Below are positions 766-7,405 of a DNA stretch of 38,649 nt, piece after piece. Source of the stretch: Alphaproteobacteria bacterium (GTDB taxonomy: Bacteria; Pseudomonadota; Alphaproteobacteria; Bin95); the NCBI GenBank assembly GCA_022826185.1, contig JAJDVH010000186.1, positions 1 through 38,649 of the forward strand. The letters are read 5' to 3'. Made by a program: the position numbers and the translations under genes. The first letter of the stretch is position 1, and each line of letters starts with the position of its first letter. The notes beneath the pieces were generated by a model. That model saw only the letters and a list, made by a program, of their open reading frames with translations, had not been told where the DNA came from and did not search any database.

Positions 766-3700
766 TCAGCTGCACCCGTCCGTATGGCCGCAGGTCATGC
801 ACTTCATGCAGGTGCCGTTGCGGACCATGGTGAAATTGCCGCAGCTGCCGCAGGCGTCGCCCTCATAGCCGAGCATCCGCGCATGGCGGATGGCCGCATC
901 TTGCGAGCCGCCTGCCGCCGCTGCCACCGCCGGCATCGGCGCTGCCGCGAGCGACGCCTCCACGGTCTCCTGCACGGCCGACGCGGTTTCGGTGCGGCCG
1001 CCCGAGAGCACATAGAGGTTGTCGCGCACGAAGCCGCGGCTGGCGGCGGTCGGGATCGGCTGGCCCATCTCGCGTTCCGCCAGCGCGGCCTCGTTCTCGC
1101 CGGCGCCCAGGCTGTCGGGGCGCAGGTCGTCCGACATGACGTGGCTGAGGTCGCCGCGCCCGAGATAGGAGATCGCAAGCTCGCGGAAGAGATAGTCCAG
1201 GATCGAGGTGGACATCTTGATCGCGTCATTGCCCTCCACGATCCCGGACGGCTCGAAGCGGGTGAAGGTGAAGGCCTCGACATATTCCTCCAGCGGCACG
1301 CCGTATTGCAGGCCGATGGAGATGCCGATGGCGAAATTGTTCATCAGGCTGCGGAAGGCCGCGCCCTCCTTGTGCATGTCGATGAAGATCTCGCCGAGCT
1401 TGCCGTCGTCATATTCGCCGGTGCGCAGATAGACCTTGTGGTTCCCGACCGTGGCCTTCTGCGTGTAACCCTTGCGGCGGTCCGGCAGGCGTTTGCGTTC
1501 GATCAGGCGCCGCTCGACGATGCGTTCCGCCAGAACCGTAGCGCGGCCCGCGGCCGGTTCGTCCGCGATGTCCTCCGCAAGGTCGCCGCCGAGCGCCGTC
1601 GCCGCGAGCGGCTGCGAGAGCTTCGAGCCGTCGCGGTAGAGCGCGTTCGCCTTGAGCCCGAGGCTCCAGGACAGCAGGTAGGCGTCGATGCAGTCCTGCA
1701 CGGTCGCGCCGTTCGCCATGTTCACGGTCTTGGAAATCGCGCCCGAGATATAGGGCTGAACGGCCCCCAGAATCCGGATGTGGCTCTCGGTCGAAAGGTG
1801 GCGGGTGCCGTTCCGCCCGCAGGGGTTGGCGCAGTCGAACACCGGCAGGTGCTCCTCGCGGAGGTCCGGCGCGCCCTCGACCGTCATCGCGCCGCCGCAC
1901 CAGAGGTTCGCCGCCTCGATCTCCGCCTTCGAGAAGCCAAGCGCGCCCAGCAGGTCGCCGCTCTCCAGCTCCTCGTCCGTCAGGCCGAGCGCTTCGCGGC
2001 AGGCCGCCTCGCCGAGCGTCCATCGGTTGAACACGAAGCGGATGTCGAACGCGCTGGGCAGCGCGGCCTCCACCGCCTCGATCATCTCCGGCGTGAAGCC
2101 TTTCGCCGCCAGCGCCTCGTGGCCGATGGCGGGCGAGCCTTCCAGAGTGCCCCGGCCGACGGCATGGCGCTCGATGGCCTCGATCCGCTCCCCGTCATAG
2201 CCGAGCGCAGCCAGCGCTTCCGGCACCAGGCTGTTGATGATCTTGAAATAGCCGCCGCCGGCGAGCTTCTTGAACTTCACCAGCGCGAAATCCGGCTCGA
2301 TTCCCGTGGTGTCGCAGTCCATGACCAGGCCGATCGTGCCGGTGGGCGCGATGACGGTAGCCTGCGCATTGCGGTAGCCGTGCTTCTCGCCGGAGGCCAG
2401 GGCCTCGTCCCAGGCGCCTCGCGCGGCGTCCGCCAGGCCCTCGAAGGGGCAGGCATCGGCGTCGAGCGGCTGCGGATCGGTGTTCAGCCCTTCATAGCCC
2501 TCCGTGCAACCATGCGCCGCGCGGCGGTGATTGCGGATGACCCGCAGCATGGCCCCGGCGTTGGCGGGATAGCCTTCGAACGGGCCGAGTTCGCCGGCGA
2601 TTTCGGCCGATGTCGCATAGGCCGTGCCGGTCATCAGCGCGGTGATGGCGCCCGCCGTCGCGCGGCCCTCGTCGCTGTCGTAAGCGATGCCCGACGCCAT
2701 CAGCAGGCCGCCGACATTGGCGTAGCCCAGCCCGAGCGGGCGGTAGCGGTAGGACCTCTCGGCGATGCGCCGCGACGGGAACTGCGCCATCGATTCCGAG
2801 ATTTCGAGCGCGACCGTCCACAGCCTGACCGTGTGCCGGAAGCCCTCTATGTCGAACTCGCCCTCCTCCGTGCGGAACGCCATCAGGTTCAGCGACGCCA
2901 GATTGCAGGCCGTGTCGTCCAGGAACATGTATTCCGAACAGGGGTTGGAGGCGTCGATCCGTCCTTCCGCCGGGCAGGTGTGCCAGTCGTTGACGGTGGT
3001 GTCGAACTGGACGCCGGGGTCCGCCGAGGCCCAGGCGGCATGGGCGATCCTGTCCATCAGGCCGCGCGCCTCTACGGTGCGCGCCACGGCGCCGTCCGTG
3101 CGCCGCGTGAGCGCCCAGTCGTCCCCGGTTTCGACGGCGCGCAGGAACTCGTCCGTCAGCCGCACGGAGTTGTTGGAATTCTGGCCGGCGACCGTGCGGT
3201 AGGCCTCGCTGTCCCAGTCGGTGTCGTAGGTGCGGAAGGCGATGTCGGTGAAACCCTGGCGGGCGAACTGGATCACCCGCTGGATGTAGCCTTCGGGAAT
3301 CGCGGCCTCCCGCGCGTCCGTCACCGCCTTGCGCAGCGCCCGGTTCCGCCTTGCGTCGAAGCGGTCGGCCCCGTCGATCTCGCCCGCGCCGGGCCCGCCC
3401 GGAGCGCAGGCGGCGATCACGCGGCCCAGGTGCTTCTCGCAGGCCTTCGAGCCGGCCACCAGCGCGGCGACCTTCTGCTCCTCGACCACCTTCCAGTCGA
3501 TATAGTCCTCGATGTCCGGGTGGTCGATGTCGAGCGTGACCATCTTGGCGGCGCGCCTCGTGGTGCCGCCCGACTTGATGGCGCCCGCCGCCCGGTCGCC
3601 GATCTTCAGGAAGCTCATCAGCCCGGAGGAGCGCCCGCCGCCGGAGAGCGGCTCGCCTTCCGCGCGCAGCTTCGAGAAATTGGTGCCGGTGCCGGAGCCG

Positions 3701-4389
3701 TATTTGAACAGCCGCGCCTCGCGCAGCCAGAGGTCCATGATCCCGCCTTCGTTCACCAGGTCGTCGGAGACGGACTGGATGAAGCAGGCATGGGGCTGCG
3801 GGCGCTCATAGGCGGATTCGGACGCGCGGCATTCGCCCGTGGCGGGATCGACGAAGTAATGCCCCTGCGCCGGCCCGTCTATGCCGTAGGCCCAGTGGAG
3901 GCCGGTGTTGAACCATTGCGGCGAGTTCGGCGCCGCCATCTGCCGGGCGAGCATGGCGCGCATTTCATCGTAATAGGCGCGCGCGTCCTCCTCGGCGGAG
4001 AAATAGCCGCCCTTCCATCCCCAATAGGTCCAGGCGCCGGCGAGCCGGTGGAAGACCTGGCGGGCGTCGCGCTCGGCCCCGAGGGTTGCGCCCTCGGCCG
4101 GCCGGCGGCGCTGCAGCCAGTCCGGCACGCCGTCCTCGGCGACCGGCTCCGTCAGGTCGGGAACGCCGGCCTTGCGGAAATATTTCTGCGCCAGCACATC
4201 GACGGCCACCTGCGACCATCCCTGCGGCGCCATGATGTCGTCGGCAATGAAAACGGGGGTGCCGTCGGGATTGCGGATTTCGCTGTTTCTGCGGACGAAC
4301 GCAACGCCATCATAGGCCGAGGCGCATCCGCCGGTGTGGTGACGCTGGAAATGCAAGCGAGCTATCCTCGAAACGGTTAAGCCGCACAC
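766..4389 (-). CDS. nrdJ: Vitamin B12-dependent ribonucleotide reductase
   Basis: Class II ribonucleotide reductase, which uses adenosylcobalamin to make a thiyl radical and reduce ribonucleotides to deoxyribonucleotides. The 1207 residues match the long proteobacterial form. Visible landmarks are NSPQWFNTG near residues 155-163, the NPCSEY motif with the likely thiyl cysteine C484, and C202 and C495 in the positions of the family's redox pair. The motif [13 protein letters not shown] comes later. The C-terminal tail from C1180 has six cysteines, the usual redox tail. Family similarity begins around residue 30, so the start is uncertain. The GTG at 4389 lacks a clear Shine-Dalgarno sequence, and a TTG at 4356 is an alternative. 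Two NrdR-box-like sites lie upstream. The gene is single and monocistronic as far as seen. Confidence 0.96.
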
Positions 4390-4412
4390 AGAAAAACCAG
4401 CTTAACCGAAAT

Positions 4413-4428
4413 TCGCAGGATTTTGTAG
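4413..4428 (-). promoter_or_regulatory. Candidate NrdR box 2, proximal to nrdJ
   Basis: The 16 bases TCGCAGGATTTTGTAG match the published NrdR consensus ACACWATATATWGTGT at 9 of 16 positions. The match includes the core C-W at positions 4-5 and W-G at positions 12-13. The site lies 24-39 bases upstream of the nrdJ GTG. It would be weak alone; the argument is its 31-bp spacing from the site at 4444-4459. Confidence 0.45.
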
Positions 4429-4443
4429 TTATCCTTAAGGAAA

Positions 4444-4459
4444 ATACTATCAGCAGTAT
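4444..4459 (-). promoter_or_regulatory. Candidate NrdR box 1, distal to nrdJ
   Basis: ATACTATCAGCAGTAT is a dyad with 5-bp perfect arms (ATACT and AGTAT). It matches the 16-bp NrdR consensus at 10 of 16 positions, including the C-W and W-G core. Its centre is 31 bp from the centre of the second site, leaving a 15-bp linker, which is the phasing known for NrdR box pairs. NrdR is the ATP/dATP-sensing repressor of ribonucleotide reductase genes. No nrdR gene is in this window. Confidence 0.5.
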
Positions 4460-4587
4460 CTGGAGATCGCGACGCGCTAAGCGAAGCGGCGCCGGGAGCC
4501 GGGGATAGCCATGCGCTTCCGCCGGGGCAACGAAGGGCCCGCCGACGGTCGATCCGGCCCGATTCTTTTACAATTGGCCTGCATTTC

Positions 4588-4646
4588 ACTTTCAATCGGT
4601 CACCTGTTTACTTTCAATCGGTCATCCATAATCTTTCAATCAGTCA
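4588..4646 (+). repeat. Three direct repeats at 22-bp period
   Basis: ACTTTCAATCGGTCA occurs at 4588-4602 and 4610-4624, and the variant TCTTTCAATCAGTCA at 4632-4646. The start-to-start distance is exactly 22 bp, two helical turns, and the 7-bp spacers differ in sequence. The last copy ends 18 bases before the GTG of the DUF4143 gene. The local sequence is much more AT-rich than its surroundings. It may be an operator array for the downstream gene. It may instead be the remnant end of an IS21-family element, since ends of that family carry multiple short repeats. Confidence 0.85.
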
Positions 4647-4664
4647 AACCGTCGGAGCAGTGTC

Positions 4665-5888
4665 GTGTATCCCCGTTTCATCGAACGGCAGGTCCGGGAA
4701 GCCCTGGCTGACACCAGGGTCGTACTGCTTTGCGGTCCCCGGCAATCGGGAAAGACCACGCTGGCGCAGCGAATTGCGGGCGAGGCCTTTCCCTTCTTCA
4801 CCCTCGACGACGCCACGACGCTCGACGCCGCATTGTCCGATCCGGTCGGCTTCCTGCGCGGCCTCGACCGCGCCGTCATCGACGAAATCCAGCGCGCGCC
4901 GGAACTCATTCTGGCCATCAAGGTCGCCGTGGACTCCGACCCGCGCCCGGGGCGGTTTCTGCTCACCGGCTCGGCAGACCTGATGACCCTGCCCCGCGTC
5001 GCGGATTCGCTCGCCGGCCGTATGGGCATCGTTCGCTTGCTGCCCCTGGCCCAGGCGGAGTTGCGCGGCGCGGGCCCGCCATCCTTTCTCGACATGGCGT
5101 TCGCCGGGGAGATTCCGGCAGTCCGGGCTCCGGCCGCCGGCGGCAGCCTCGTGGAGACGGTTCTCGCGGGAGGCTACCCCGAGGCGTTGACGCGCTCCGG
5201 ATGGCGGCGGCGGCAGAACTGGCACCTGGACTATGTCGAAGCCATCGTGCAACGGGATGTCCGCGACATCGCCCGGATCGACCGCCTGGCCTCGATGCCG
5301 CGCCTGCTGCGCGTGCTCGCCGAACAATCGGGCCAGCTCGTCAACTATTCAGGGTTCGGCGCGCCGCTCGGCATGAGCCACGTTACCACCCGCAAATATC
5401 TGGATATCCTCGAGAGCCTGTTCCTCGTCTACACGCTGTCGCCCTGGTACTCCAACACCCTGAAGCGTCTCACGAAATCCCCCAAGCTGCATTTTCTGGA
5501 CGCCGGACTGCTGGCCGCGCTCAGGGGACTCACGCCGGACCGCCTGCGCCGCGACCGGACGCCGTTCGGACCGTTGCTGGAAACCTTTGTGCTGGGCGAG
5601 CTTCTGAAACTCGCGACCTGGACCGACGACCGTTATGCGTTTTCGCACTTCCGCAACAAGCAGCGGAACGAAGTGGATATCGTCATCGAAAACGGGCGCG
5701 GCGAGATCGTCGGGATCGAGGTGAAAGCGTCGGCGACCGTTTCCACGAAGGATTTTTCCGGACTGCGCTATCTTGCGGCGGACGCCGGCGAGCGGTTCGT
5801 GATGGGGCTTGTCCTCTACGACCATGAGAGCAGTATTGCTTTCGGCCCGCGGATGGCCGCCGTTCCGGTCCCGGCGCTATGGTCCTGA
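4665..5888 (+). CDS. AAA-type ATPase with DUF4143 domain
   Basis: Putative ATP-binding protein of 407 residues, of the AAA_14/DUF4143 family. The Walker A motif GPRQSGKTT is at residues 24-32, Walker B with D73-E74 (VIDEIQ) follows, and LLTGSAD at 99-105 is the sensor-like strand. DUF4143 covers roughly 190-355 and ends in a nuclease-like signature, with E336 and D338 followed by E352-V-K354, reminiscent of the PD-(D/E)xK fold. The biochemical role of the family is not established. The GTG start is supported by GGAG at 4654-4657. The gene stands alone between nrdJ and the complex I/mla block, behind an unusual repeat array, and looks like an accessory acquisition. Family call is firm; function unknown. 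Confidence 0.92.
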   Translation: MYPRFIERQVREALADTRVVLLCGPRQSGKTTLAQRIAGEAFPFFTLDDATTLDAALSDPVGFLRGLDRAVIDEIQRAPELILAIKVAVDSDPRPGRFLLTGSADLMTLPRVADSLAGRMGIVRLLPLAQAELRGAGPPSFLDMAFAGEIPAVRAPAAGGSLVETVLAGGYPEALTRSGWRRRQNWHLDYVEAIVQRDVRDIARIDRLASMPRLLRVLAEQSGQLVNYSGFGAPLGMSHVTTRKYLDILESLFLVYTLSPWYSNTLKRLTKSPKLHFLDAGLLAALRGLTPDRLRRDRTPFGPLLETFVLGELLKLATWTDDRYAFSHFRNKQRNEVDIVIENGRGEIVGIEVKASATVSTKDFSGLRYLAADAGERFVMGLVLYDHESSIAFGPRMAAVPVPALWS

Positions 5889-6032
5889 CGCCGCCGGCCG
5901 GCCGGCCCTGCGATCGCTCAGGCAAACCGCTACAGGCGGCCGCCGGGCCGCTCCTTCCCTCCCGTCGCCGCGGGGCTGCGCCAGCCCATCAGGTCCAGGT
6001 CATGGCCCCTTTGCTCCGTTGGAGATTATTTG

Positions 6033-6047
6033 GAACATATATGGAAC
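6033..6047 (+). promoter_or_regulatory. Candidate alphaproteobacterial LexA (SOS) box
   Basis: GAAC at 6033-6036 and GAAC at 6044-6047 are separated by exactly 7 bases, which is the GAAC-N7-GAAC form of the alphaproteobacterial LexA site. It sits in an AT-rich patch 84-98 bases before the NDUFA12 start. No DNA-repair gene is adjacent. One such 8-base match is expected by chance in a window of this size, so the call is tentative. Confidence 0.3.
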
Positions 6048-6115
6048 AATGGAGCGGAATGTCAAGCGCCAGGTTTGACCGGCGGGCGGAGCGGTGCGAT
6101 AAGGGCTCGAGTTCT

Positions 6116-6120
6116 GGAGG
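6116..6120 (+). promoter_or_regulatory. Ribosome binding site setting the NDUFA12 start
   Basis: GGAGG at 6116-6120 lies 10 bases before the GTG at 6131. It favours this start over the in-frame ATG at 6041, whose extra residues do not resemble the family. Confidence 0.6.
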
Positions 6121-6130
6121 GACCCGGCTC

Positions 6131-6487
6131 GTGACTTCCATCGGAACGCGGCTTTACACCTGGATGCAGGGCGAGTTCGTCGGCGAGGACGAGCAGGGCA
6201 ACCGCTATTTCCGCAGCCGCCGGGGCCGCCTGCACGGGCGCGAGCGGCGCTGGGTCGTCTATGACGGACCTGTCGAAGCCTCCCGCGTGCCGCCGGAATG
6301 GCATGCCTGGCTGCACCGCATGGCCGATGCGCCGCCGGCGGCGGACCGCCCGCGCTATCCCTGGCAGCTGCCGCACGAACCGAACCTGACCGGCACGCCG
6401 CAGGCCTACCGCCCGCCGGGACACGATTTCGCCGGCGGGCGCCGCGCGGCGGCGACGGGCGACTACGAGGCCTGGACGCCCGAGTGA
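6131..6487 (+). CDS. NADH:ubiquinone oxidoreductase subunit NDUFA12-like
   Basis: Homologue of the mitochondrial complex I accessory subunit NDUFA12 (B17.2), found in alphaproteobacteria as a peripheral complex I subunit. It has 118 residues, near the usual family length. Family hallmarks are GTRLYTW near the N terminus, GEFVGEDEQGNRYF, the RRWVVYDG segment, EASRVPPEWHAWLH, and the C-terminal GTPQAYRPPG and TGDYEAW. The GTG start is chosen from its Shine-Dalgarno sequence; an ATG at 6041 is in frame but adds atypical sequence. The stop overlaps the mlaD ATG by one base (TGATG), so translation is probably coupled. The order NDUFA12-mlaD-DUF2155 is common in alphaproteobacteria. Confidence 0.93.
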   Translation: MTSIGTRLYTWMQGEFVGEDEQGNRYFRSRRGRLHGRERRWVVYDGPVEASRVPPEWHAWLHRMADAPPAADRPRYPWQLPHEPNLTGTPQAYRPPGHDFAGGRRAAATGDYEAWTPE

Positions 6488-6942
6488 TGCGGCGCAGCCT
6501 GCTCGAAACGATAACGGGCGCCGCAGTGCTGCTGGCCGCTGCCGCGTTCGTGTTCTTCGCCTATTCGACCGCCGATCTCGGGCGCGGCGGCGGATATGAG
6601 GTGGTCGCCGAGTTCGACAATATCGGCGGGCTGGCGGTCGGCGCCGACGTGCGGATGAGCGGCATCAAGGTCGGCACCGTCTCCGGCCAGCGGCTCGACA
6701 GGGAGACCTTTACCGCGCTGGTCACCTTTTCCATCGACCCGTCGGTCAAGCTGCCGACCGACAGCTCCGTCAAGATCGCGAGCGAAAGCCTGCTCGGCGG
6801 CAAGTATGCGCAGCTGACGCCCGGCGCCGAAGACGACGCCATTCCGCCGGGCGGCCGCATTCACTTCGCGCAGTCCTCCGTCAGCATCGAGGACCTGATC
6901 GGCCGCTTCCTGTTCAGCGGCGCCGATGACAAGAAGAAGTAG
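6487..6942 (+). CDS. mlaD: Outer-membrane lipid asymmetry protein MlaD
   Basis: Periplasmic, membrane-anchored substrate-binding subunit of the Mla phospholipid transport system, which moves lipids between the outer and inner membranes. The 151-residue protein has a short basic N terminus, one membrane segment at about residues 9-27, and an MCE/MlaD domain from about 35 to 115. That domain includes YEVVAEFDNIGGLAVGADV, GIKVGTV and ASESLLGGKYAQL. The rest of the mla operon is not here; a detached mlaD beside NDUFA12 is usual in alphaproteobacteria. It overlaps the NDUFA12 stop by one base and the next gene by 17 bases. Confidence 0.94.
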   Translation: MRRSLLETITGAAVLLAAAAFVFFAYSTADLGRGGGYEVVAEFDNIGGLAVGADVRMSGIKVGTVSGQRLDRETFTALVTFSIDPSVKLPTDSSVKIASESLLGGKYAQLTPGAEDDAIPPGGRIHFAQSSVSIEDLIGRFLFSGADDKKK

Positions 6943-7393
6943 CCGGCTTCGGGGAAGACGGCCGGGCTGCTGCCGCATTGCTCCCGCTTCGTGGCGCCTG
7001 GGCCTCTGCCTGGCGCTGCTTCCGGCGCTGATGTTGATGGCCGGGCCTGCAGCGGCCCAAAGCGGGCAGACCTTCACCTATCGCGAGATGGGGATGGCGG
7101 TGCTCCAGGGGCTCGACAAGGTCACCGCGCGAATCTCCACCCTGACGATGCCGCTGGAGCAGACGAAGCGCTTCGGCACGCTGGAGGTCACCGTCTGGGC
7201 CTGCCGGAAGCGGCCGCCGGAGGAACCGCCGGAAAGCGCCGTGTTCCTCACCATCGTCGAGCGCAAGCGGGGCGCCCCGCCGGCGCGCCTGTTCCAGGGA
7301 TGGATGTTCGCGTCGAGCCCCGCCATGTCGGCGCTGGAGCACCCGGTCTATGACATCTGGGCGCTGGACTGCGTCGACAGCCCGGTGGAATAG
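6926..7393 (+). CDS. DUF2155 domain-containing exported protein
   Basis: A 155-residue protein of the DUF2155 family, function unknown, which regularly follows mlaD in alphaproteobacteria. The basic N terminus, the hydrophobic stretch at about residues 25-40 and the AAAQS sequence indicate a signal peptide and periplasmic location. The conserved core includes a long Q-T-K-R-F-G-T-L-E-V segment, a W-A-C-R-K-R motif and the FLTI...LFQGWMFASSPAMSALEH region near the C terminus. The start overlaps the end of mlaD by 17 bases, so the two are one transcript. It converges on gltD with only 12 bases between stops. Confidence 0.9.
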   Translation: MTRRSSRLRGRRPGCCRIAPASWRLGLCLALLPALMLMAGPAAAQSGQTFTYREMGMAVLQGLDKVTARISTLTMPLEQTKRFGTLEVTVWACRKRPPEEPPESAVFLTIVERKRGAPPARLFQGWMFASSPAMSALEHPVYDIWALDCVDSPVE

Positions 7394-7405
7394 CGCCCGA
7401 AAGGC

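Follow-up and report, generated by a model that had tools for sequence, protein, structure and literature searches.

The window analysed here, a 38,649-nucleotide stretch of contig JAJDVH010000186.1 from an Alphaproteobacteria bacterium (GCA_022826185.1), carries a phased array of short direct repeats immediately ahead of an AAA_14-DUF4143 ATPase gene (4665–5888, + strand, 407 amino acids) of the candidate defence family PDC-S01. Our analysis indicates that this array is probably a dedicated, self-encoded operator of the DUF4143 gene, such that the DUF4143 protein would itself bind the repeats and repress its own expression. At the level of sequence, the array is both conserved with the gene and co-divergent with the predicted DNA-binding part of its product, as expected of an autoregulatory operator. 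A conserved, co-diverging operator indicates which DNA the protein probably reads, and offers both a reporter and a binding probe. The literature that we found on DUF4143 contains no description of arrays of this kind, and the excerpts consulted from the PDC-S01 account (PMC12988326) do not speak of a regulatory array either.

At the window locus, two identical copies of the 15-bp unit ACTTTCAATCGGTCA (unit 1, 4588–4602; unit 2, 4610–4624) are followed by TCTTTCAATCAGTCA, which differs from them at two positions (unit 3, 4632–4646). All three lie on the + strand with a start-to-start period of exactly 22 bp, and 18 bases separate the end of unit 3 from the GTG start codon at 4665. This bears out the preliminary description of the locus, which had reported two perfect copies, one two-mismatch variant, the same period and the same distance to the gene. 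That description had overlooked a decayed fourth unit, TTTTACAATTGGCCT, which lies in phase with the others at 4566–4580 (+ strand, 9 of 15 positions matching) and is kept intact, as TCTTTCAATCGGCCC, in a relative that is 93% identical (L011). A search of the genome for the 15-mer, as the same description had proposed, recovered the array at the ATPase gene and no further exact copy of the 14-mer core: CTTTCAATCRGTCA occurs without mismatch only at units 1–3 in the 4.48-Mb genome, and its single-mismatch matches fall on three other contigs, none within an array. An automated repeat search of the window did not list the array, a limit of the tool with units as short as these. The repeats are real and go beyond chance.

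The same arrangement recurs in front of the gene family. In a first set of 80 relatives, picked by protein similarity alone, identity in the upstream DNA reached 0.48 at a lag of 22, against a background of about 0.26, with a second peak at a lag of 44, and a shuffling test at lag 22 gave p <= 0.01 in 75 of 81 loci; these shuffles preserve base content and not dinucleotide content, and the neighbouring-gene control that follows shares the composition of the genome. With periods of 21 to 24 allowed and a threshold of z > 3, a phased array was found just upstream in 91 of 97 relatives. Of 388 control positions, the starts of neighbouring genes, 6 passed the same threshold, and one of these 6 belongs to a DUF4143 gene. 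A later set, which covered further Alphaproteobacteria and the phylum to which the Opitutae relative belongs, had the array at 39 of 52 loci. Conservation next to homologous ATPase genes, which had been put forward at the outset as the observation that would favour an operator, is therefore what both sets display. Among the relatives the period is either 22 or 23 bp, the arrays hold two to eight units, and only some 15 bp of each 22-bp unit are informative, with near zero bits in the spacer. Since individual arrays are short, one might suppose that they reflect chance or simple tandem duplication and serve no function. This is refuted by the array counts (94% of relatives versus 1.5% of controls) and by the retention of conserved cores between diverged spacers across phyla, and we give it practically no weight.

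Paired sites are also close to exclusive to this gene family. Across 16 carrier genomes they occurred almost only at DUF4143 genes, one exception being a downstream ankyrin gene in Opitutaceae that has two units of its own. A scan of 398 genomes of the phylum with a strict paired pattern matched the genome of the window alone, because that pattern fits a single subfamily. A genome-wide regulon was rejected on the basis of this distribution and of the failure of the 14-mer to recur in its own genome. In three Opitutaceae contigs (L041, L042 and L047), the two-unit direct array follows the DUF4143 gene and precedes the ankyrin-repeat gene, about 1260–1297 bp past the DUF4143 gene start, and the ankyrin-repeat gene would, by its position, share array-based control. 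In Rhizobium leucaenae, an orphan array (L161:1990-2023) lies about 155 bp past another DUF4143 gene, on its 3' side, and was probably left behind by a copy since lost.

Furthermore, the sequence of the repeat changes with the protein. A second DUF4143 protein from the same genus (about 50% identity) is preceded by TTCCGAATTGGACG repeats, again with a 22-bp period; because paralogues within one genus carry different repeats, the array follows the gene and not the host. At gammaproteobacterial-type loci of family f39, the repeat is TTTACAATTGGACG at 23 bp. Many Rhizobium loci are near duplicates, and 64 representatives with less than 80% identity remained among the array-bearing loci. For these, partial Mantel tests of repeat divergence gave 0.205 against the winged helix and 0.317 against the nuclease domain, with 0 of 300 permutations as high in either case, and -0.21 against the AAA domain. 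The top 12-residue windows fell in residues 317–336 and 253–268, the best being 321–332 (0.40), the start of the recognition helix was also positive, and the first 39 representatives had given the same peaks. The repeats thus appear to diverge in step with the winged helix (residues 205–278, codons at 5277–5498, + strand) and with the first nuclease strand, and not with the ATPase. The strongest covarying stretch comprises residues 317–340 (codons at 5613–5684, + strand), which form the first strand of the predicted PD-(D/E)XK domain and the approach to its active site. If the array is indeed an operator, each subfamily is predicted to have its own specificity, and a protein of the L095 type would be expected on TTCCGAATTGGACG arrays and not on TTTCAATCGGTCA arrays.

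The protein matches the PADLOC PDC-S01 profile over its full length (residues 1–407, E 4.2e-171). PDC-S01 is a PADLOC candidate defence gene that combines an ATPase with a PD-(D/E)XK domain, and, in the part of that account considered here, the anti-phage activity of most PDCs is described as awaiting experimental validation (PMC12988326); the family is a very common anti-phage candidate, experimentally unvalidated according to the literature. The same make-up is seen here in the Pfam AAA_14 and DUF4143 matches together with E336, D338, E352 and K354, which are invariant among relatives and fit the predicted PD-(D/E)XK site, as expected. An AlphaFold model built with 46 relatives as input (pLDDT 91, pTM 0.92) contains a clear winged helix at about residues 205–278. 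A structure search with residues 1 to about 288 returned 2qen (Z 15.3, rmsd 4.8, 252 aligned) and 2fna, SSO1545 (Z 14.0, rmsd 4.6, 243 aligned), followed by structures of an NLR (RPP1), CED-4 and Apaf-1, the NLR and CED-4 at Z of about 13; among solved structures searched by sequence, none was related over the full length. In the model, the part from the ATPase to the winged helix has the STAND/NB-ARC-like order of NTPase, helical domain and winged helix, a similarity of fold only. Where STAND/NB-ARC-like ATPases have sensor repeats, the DUF4143 protein has its PD-(D/E)XK domain and, unlike them, its winged helix appears to read DNA. Searching the literature for the fold family and for defence ATPases under autoregulation gave no result. 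Elsewhere in the family, the AAA_14-DUF4143 gene TT_P0211 of Thermus thermophilus is listed, in a study of the Thermus Argonaute (PMC4406477), among the genes whose expression changed when plasmid DNA was present, and two relatives of the same class with genomes below 2 Mb (G416 and G422) contain 42 and 28 DUF4143-matched stretches.

The array also lies where a repressor would be placed. A putative promoter spans units 2 and 3 (TTTACT, 16 bp, TAATCT; 4607–4634, + strand); it is weak by consensus here and stronger in relatives, in which TTGACT lies inside the array. A promoter-like score of at least 9/12 was reached at 27 of 64 array loci versus 12% of shuffles, 30 of the 47 candidates scoring at least 8 fell inside the array, and the distance from array end to start codon has a median of 27 bp among relatives. 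No neighbouring gene is conserved across the loci, the largest cluster spanning 5 of 84, and a conserved partner gene was rejected on this ground; the binder would therefore most simply be the DUF4143 protein itself. The preliminary description had allowed for autoregulation or for a partner regulator at an operator array: conservation supports the operator, and self-regulation fits better than a partner. Control of the DUF4143 gene by a separate host regulator bound to the array would have a precedent in the RptR island, in which a dedicated repressor binds direct repeats over a promoter (PMC12255303). Here it is an improbable explanation, both for want of a conserved neighbour and because a host factor would not explain why the repeats differ between the paralogues of one genus and keep to the DUF4143 protein from phylum to phylum.

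We propose that each unit is an asymmetric site to which the DUF4143 protein binds by means of its winged helix and the nuclease-domain strand, and that several molecules would align on one face of the DNA. The spacing makes such cooperative binding plausible. The aligned molecules would block the promoter and so repress the gene, until a trigger, such as infection or a change in the nucleotide state of the STAND-like ATPase, released the protein, raising expression and freeing the nuclease. The protein might instead bind the array as a transcriptional activator, or use it for loading or licensing, as a place where active ATPase-nuclease is assembled or stored. Such a role could account for the inclusion of the nuclease strand in the covariation and for arrays of up to eight units (L057). 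Assembly on DNA is known for some AAA+ ATPases, and the weak fold matches include MuB filaments. We nevertheless consider such a role unlikely, since the array covers promoter-like sequence and ends close to the start codon, at the median distance given above, which is the usual place of a repressor.

Several observations weigh against autorepression by the DUF4143 protein. In STAND and NLR proteins that share a similar fold, the winged helix is known for autoinhibition and not for reading DNA. A promoter scan of the window called no consensus promoter, in keeping with the weakness of the sequence over units 2 and 3. The Mantel tests remove shared ancestry only in part, and the top covarying column of the first set, K240 with CC in the repeat, corresponds to about three changes on the tree, became weaker with more data and failed an independent-pairs test. 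We therefore rejected a residue-level code (K240 with CC, N335 with GTC), which amounts to some 3 to 8 independent contrasts on the tree and weakened in the enlarged set, and retain it as a lead only. Finally, a direct array is missing from roughly one in four of the more distant relatives. In an inverted-repeat test, 9 of 30 distant loci lacking the direct array passed, compared with 1 of 26 array loci. Palindromes lie beside the start codon in distant DUF4143 subfamilies of this kind (L149, L158, L160, L150 and L199), which suggests a second operator architecture.

Turning to the wider locus, the array and gene lie in a segment (4491–6074, left edge approximate) that is absent from the same-genus genome G402, which matches the window at 3074–4490 and 6075–7403 without the gene. 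A further genome, G398, shares the right edge of this empty site and also lacks the segment. The similarity of L011 to the window begins at 4539 on the left, just ahead of the array, and this edge, together with the empty site, indicates that array and gene travel together; the segment would appear to be mobile in some way. The preliminary description had offered a solo end of an IS21-family element as its alternative, and the repeats might more broadly be the end or the target site of an IS21-like or other transposable element, as the absence of the segment from sister genomes and the Opitutaceae copies in which direct arrays flank the gene could suggest. The 3' units of those copies, however, precede a further gene, and when the loci were scanned with their own units, hardly anything turned up outside the upstream array. 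The empty site, for which L125 and L126 were compared, showed neither terminal inverted repeats nor a target duplication, no second array end or inverted 3' copy was found, the 3' copies being only direct and confined to one Opitutae group, and no istA/istB or transposase gene was found among the neighbours. An element end was rejected on these comparisons between loci and genomes, made without an IS database, and we regard this origin as highly improbable. The flanking genes are nrdJ, NDUFA12, MlaD and DUF2155. The nrdJ–NDUFA12 intergenic region is empty in G402 and G398 and holds other extra sequence in L124, and in L011 there is extra sequence between the DUF4143 gene and NDUFA12; from these comparisons, the region looks like an insertion hot spot.

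Phased arrays were also found in viral sequences. When 2.9 million viral contigs (IMG/VR) were searched with the paired pattern at 22-bp spacing, five contigs matched, representing four distinct sequences, and in one of them the array is followed by a DUF4143 gene; the same pattern at 21 other spacings gave one match. Likewise, when GCAATTGGACG pairs were searched over 26 spacings, all three viral matches lay at exactly 23 bp. This specificity for a 22- or 23-bp phase argues against chance. No DUF4143 gene was detectable in the remaining array-bearing contigs, which may be fragments. The orphan arrays (L216, L217, L218, L219, L220, L221 and L223) have 22- or 23-bp phasing, and several sit directly ahead of an open reading frame. 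The next two frames in L220 look, by position and length only, like the small and large terminase subunits. Phages may exploit or evade the DUF4143 system, and the orphan arrays would raise the question of how they handle this family. A bolder possibility, which we hold tentatively, is that a STAND-type ATPase-nuclease uses its winged helix and nuclease strand to read a family-specific phased code, that orphan copies in phage promoter regions hijack, titrate or disarm it, and that the array is thus the recognition element of the defence.

Among known systems, plasmid iterons are phased direct repeats of about 22 bp whose winged-helix binder can repress its own gene. The DUF4143 arrays resemble them in the phased repeats of about 22 bp and the winged-helix protein, and differ in having no Rep protein or replication origin and in lying beside chromosomal as well as plasmid genes. 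Among regulatory systems the nearest parallel is RptR, a repressor that binds three direct repeats over the promoter of a phage-defence island (PMC12255303), with which the system proposed here would share direct repeats over a defence-gene promoter and autorepression by the binder. RptR is a separate repressor and its 9-bp repeats have a palindromic TAGCTA core (PMC12255303), whereas here there is no regulator gene, the 15-mers are asymmetric and spaced at 22–23 bp, and the ATPase-nuclease itself would be the binder.
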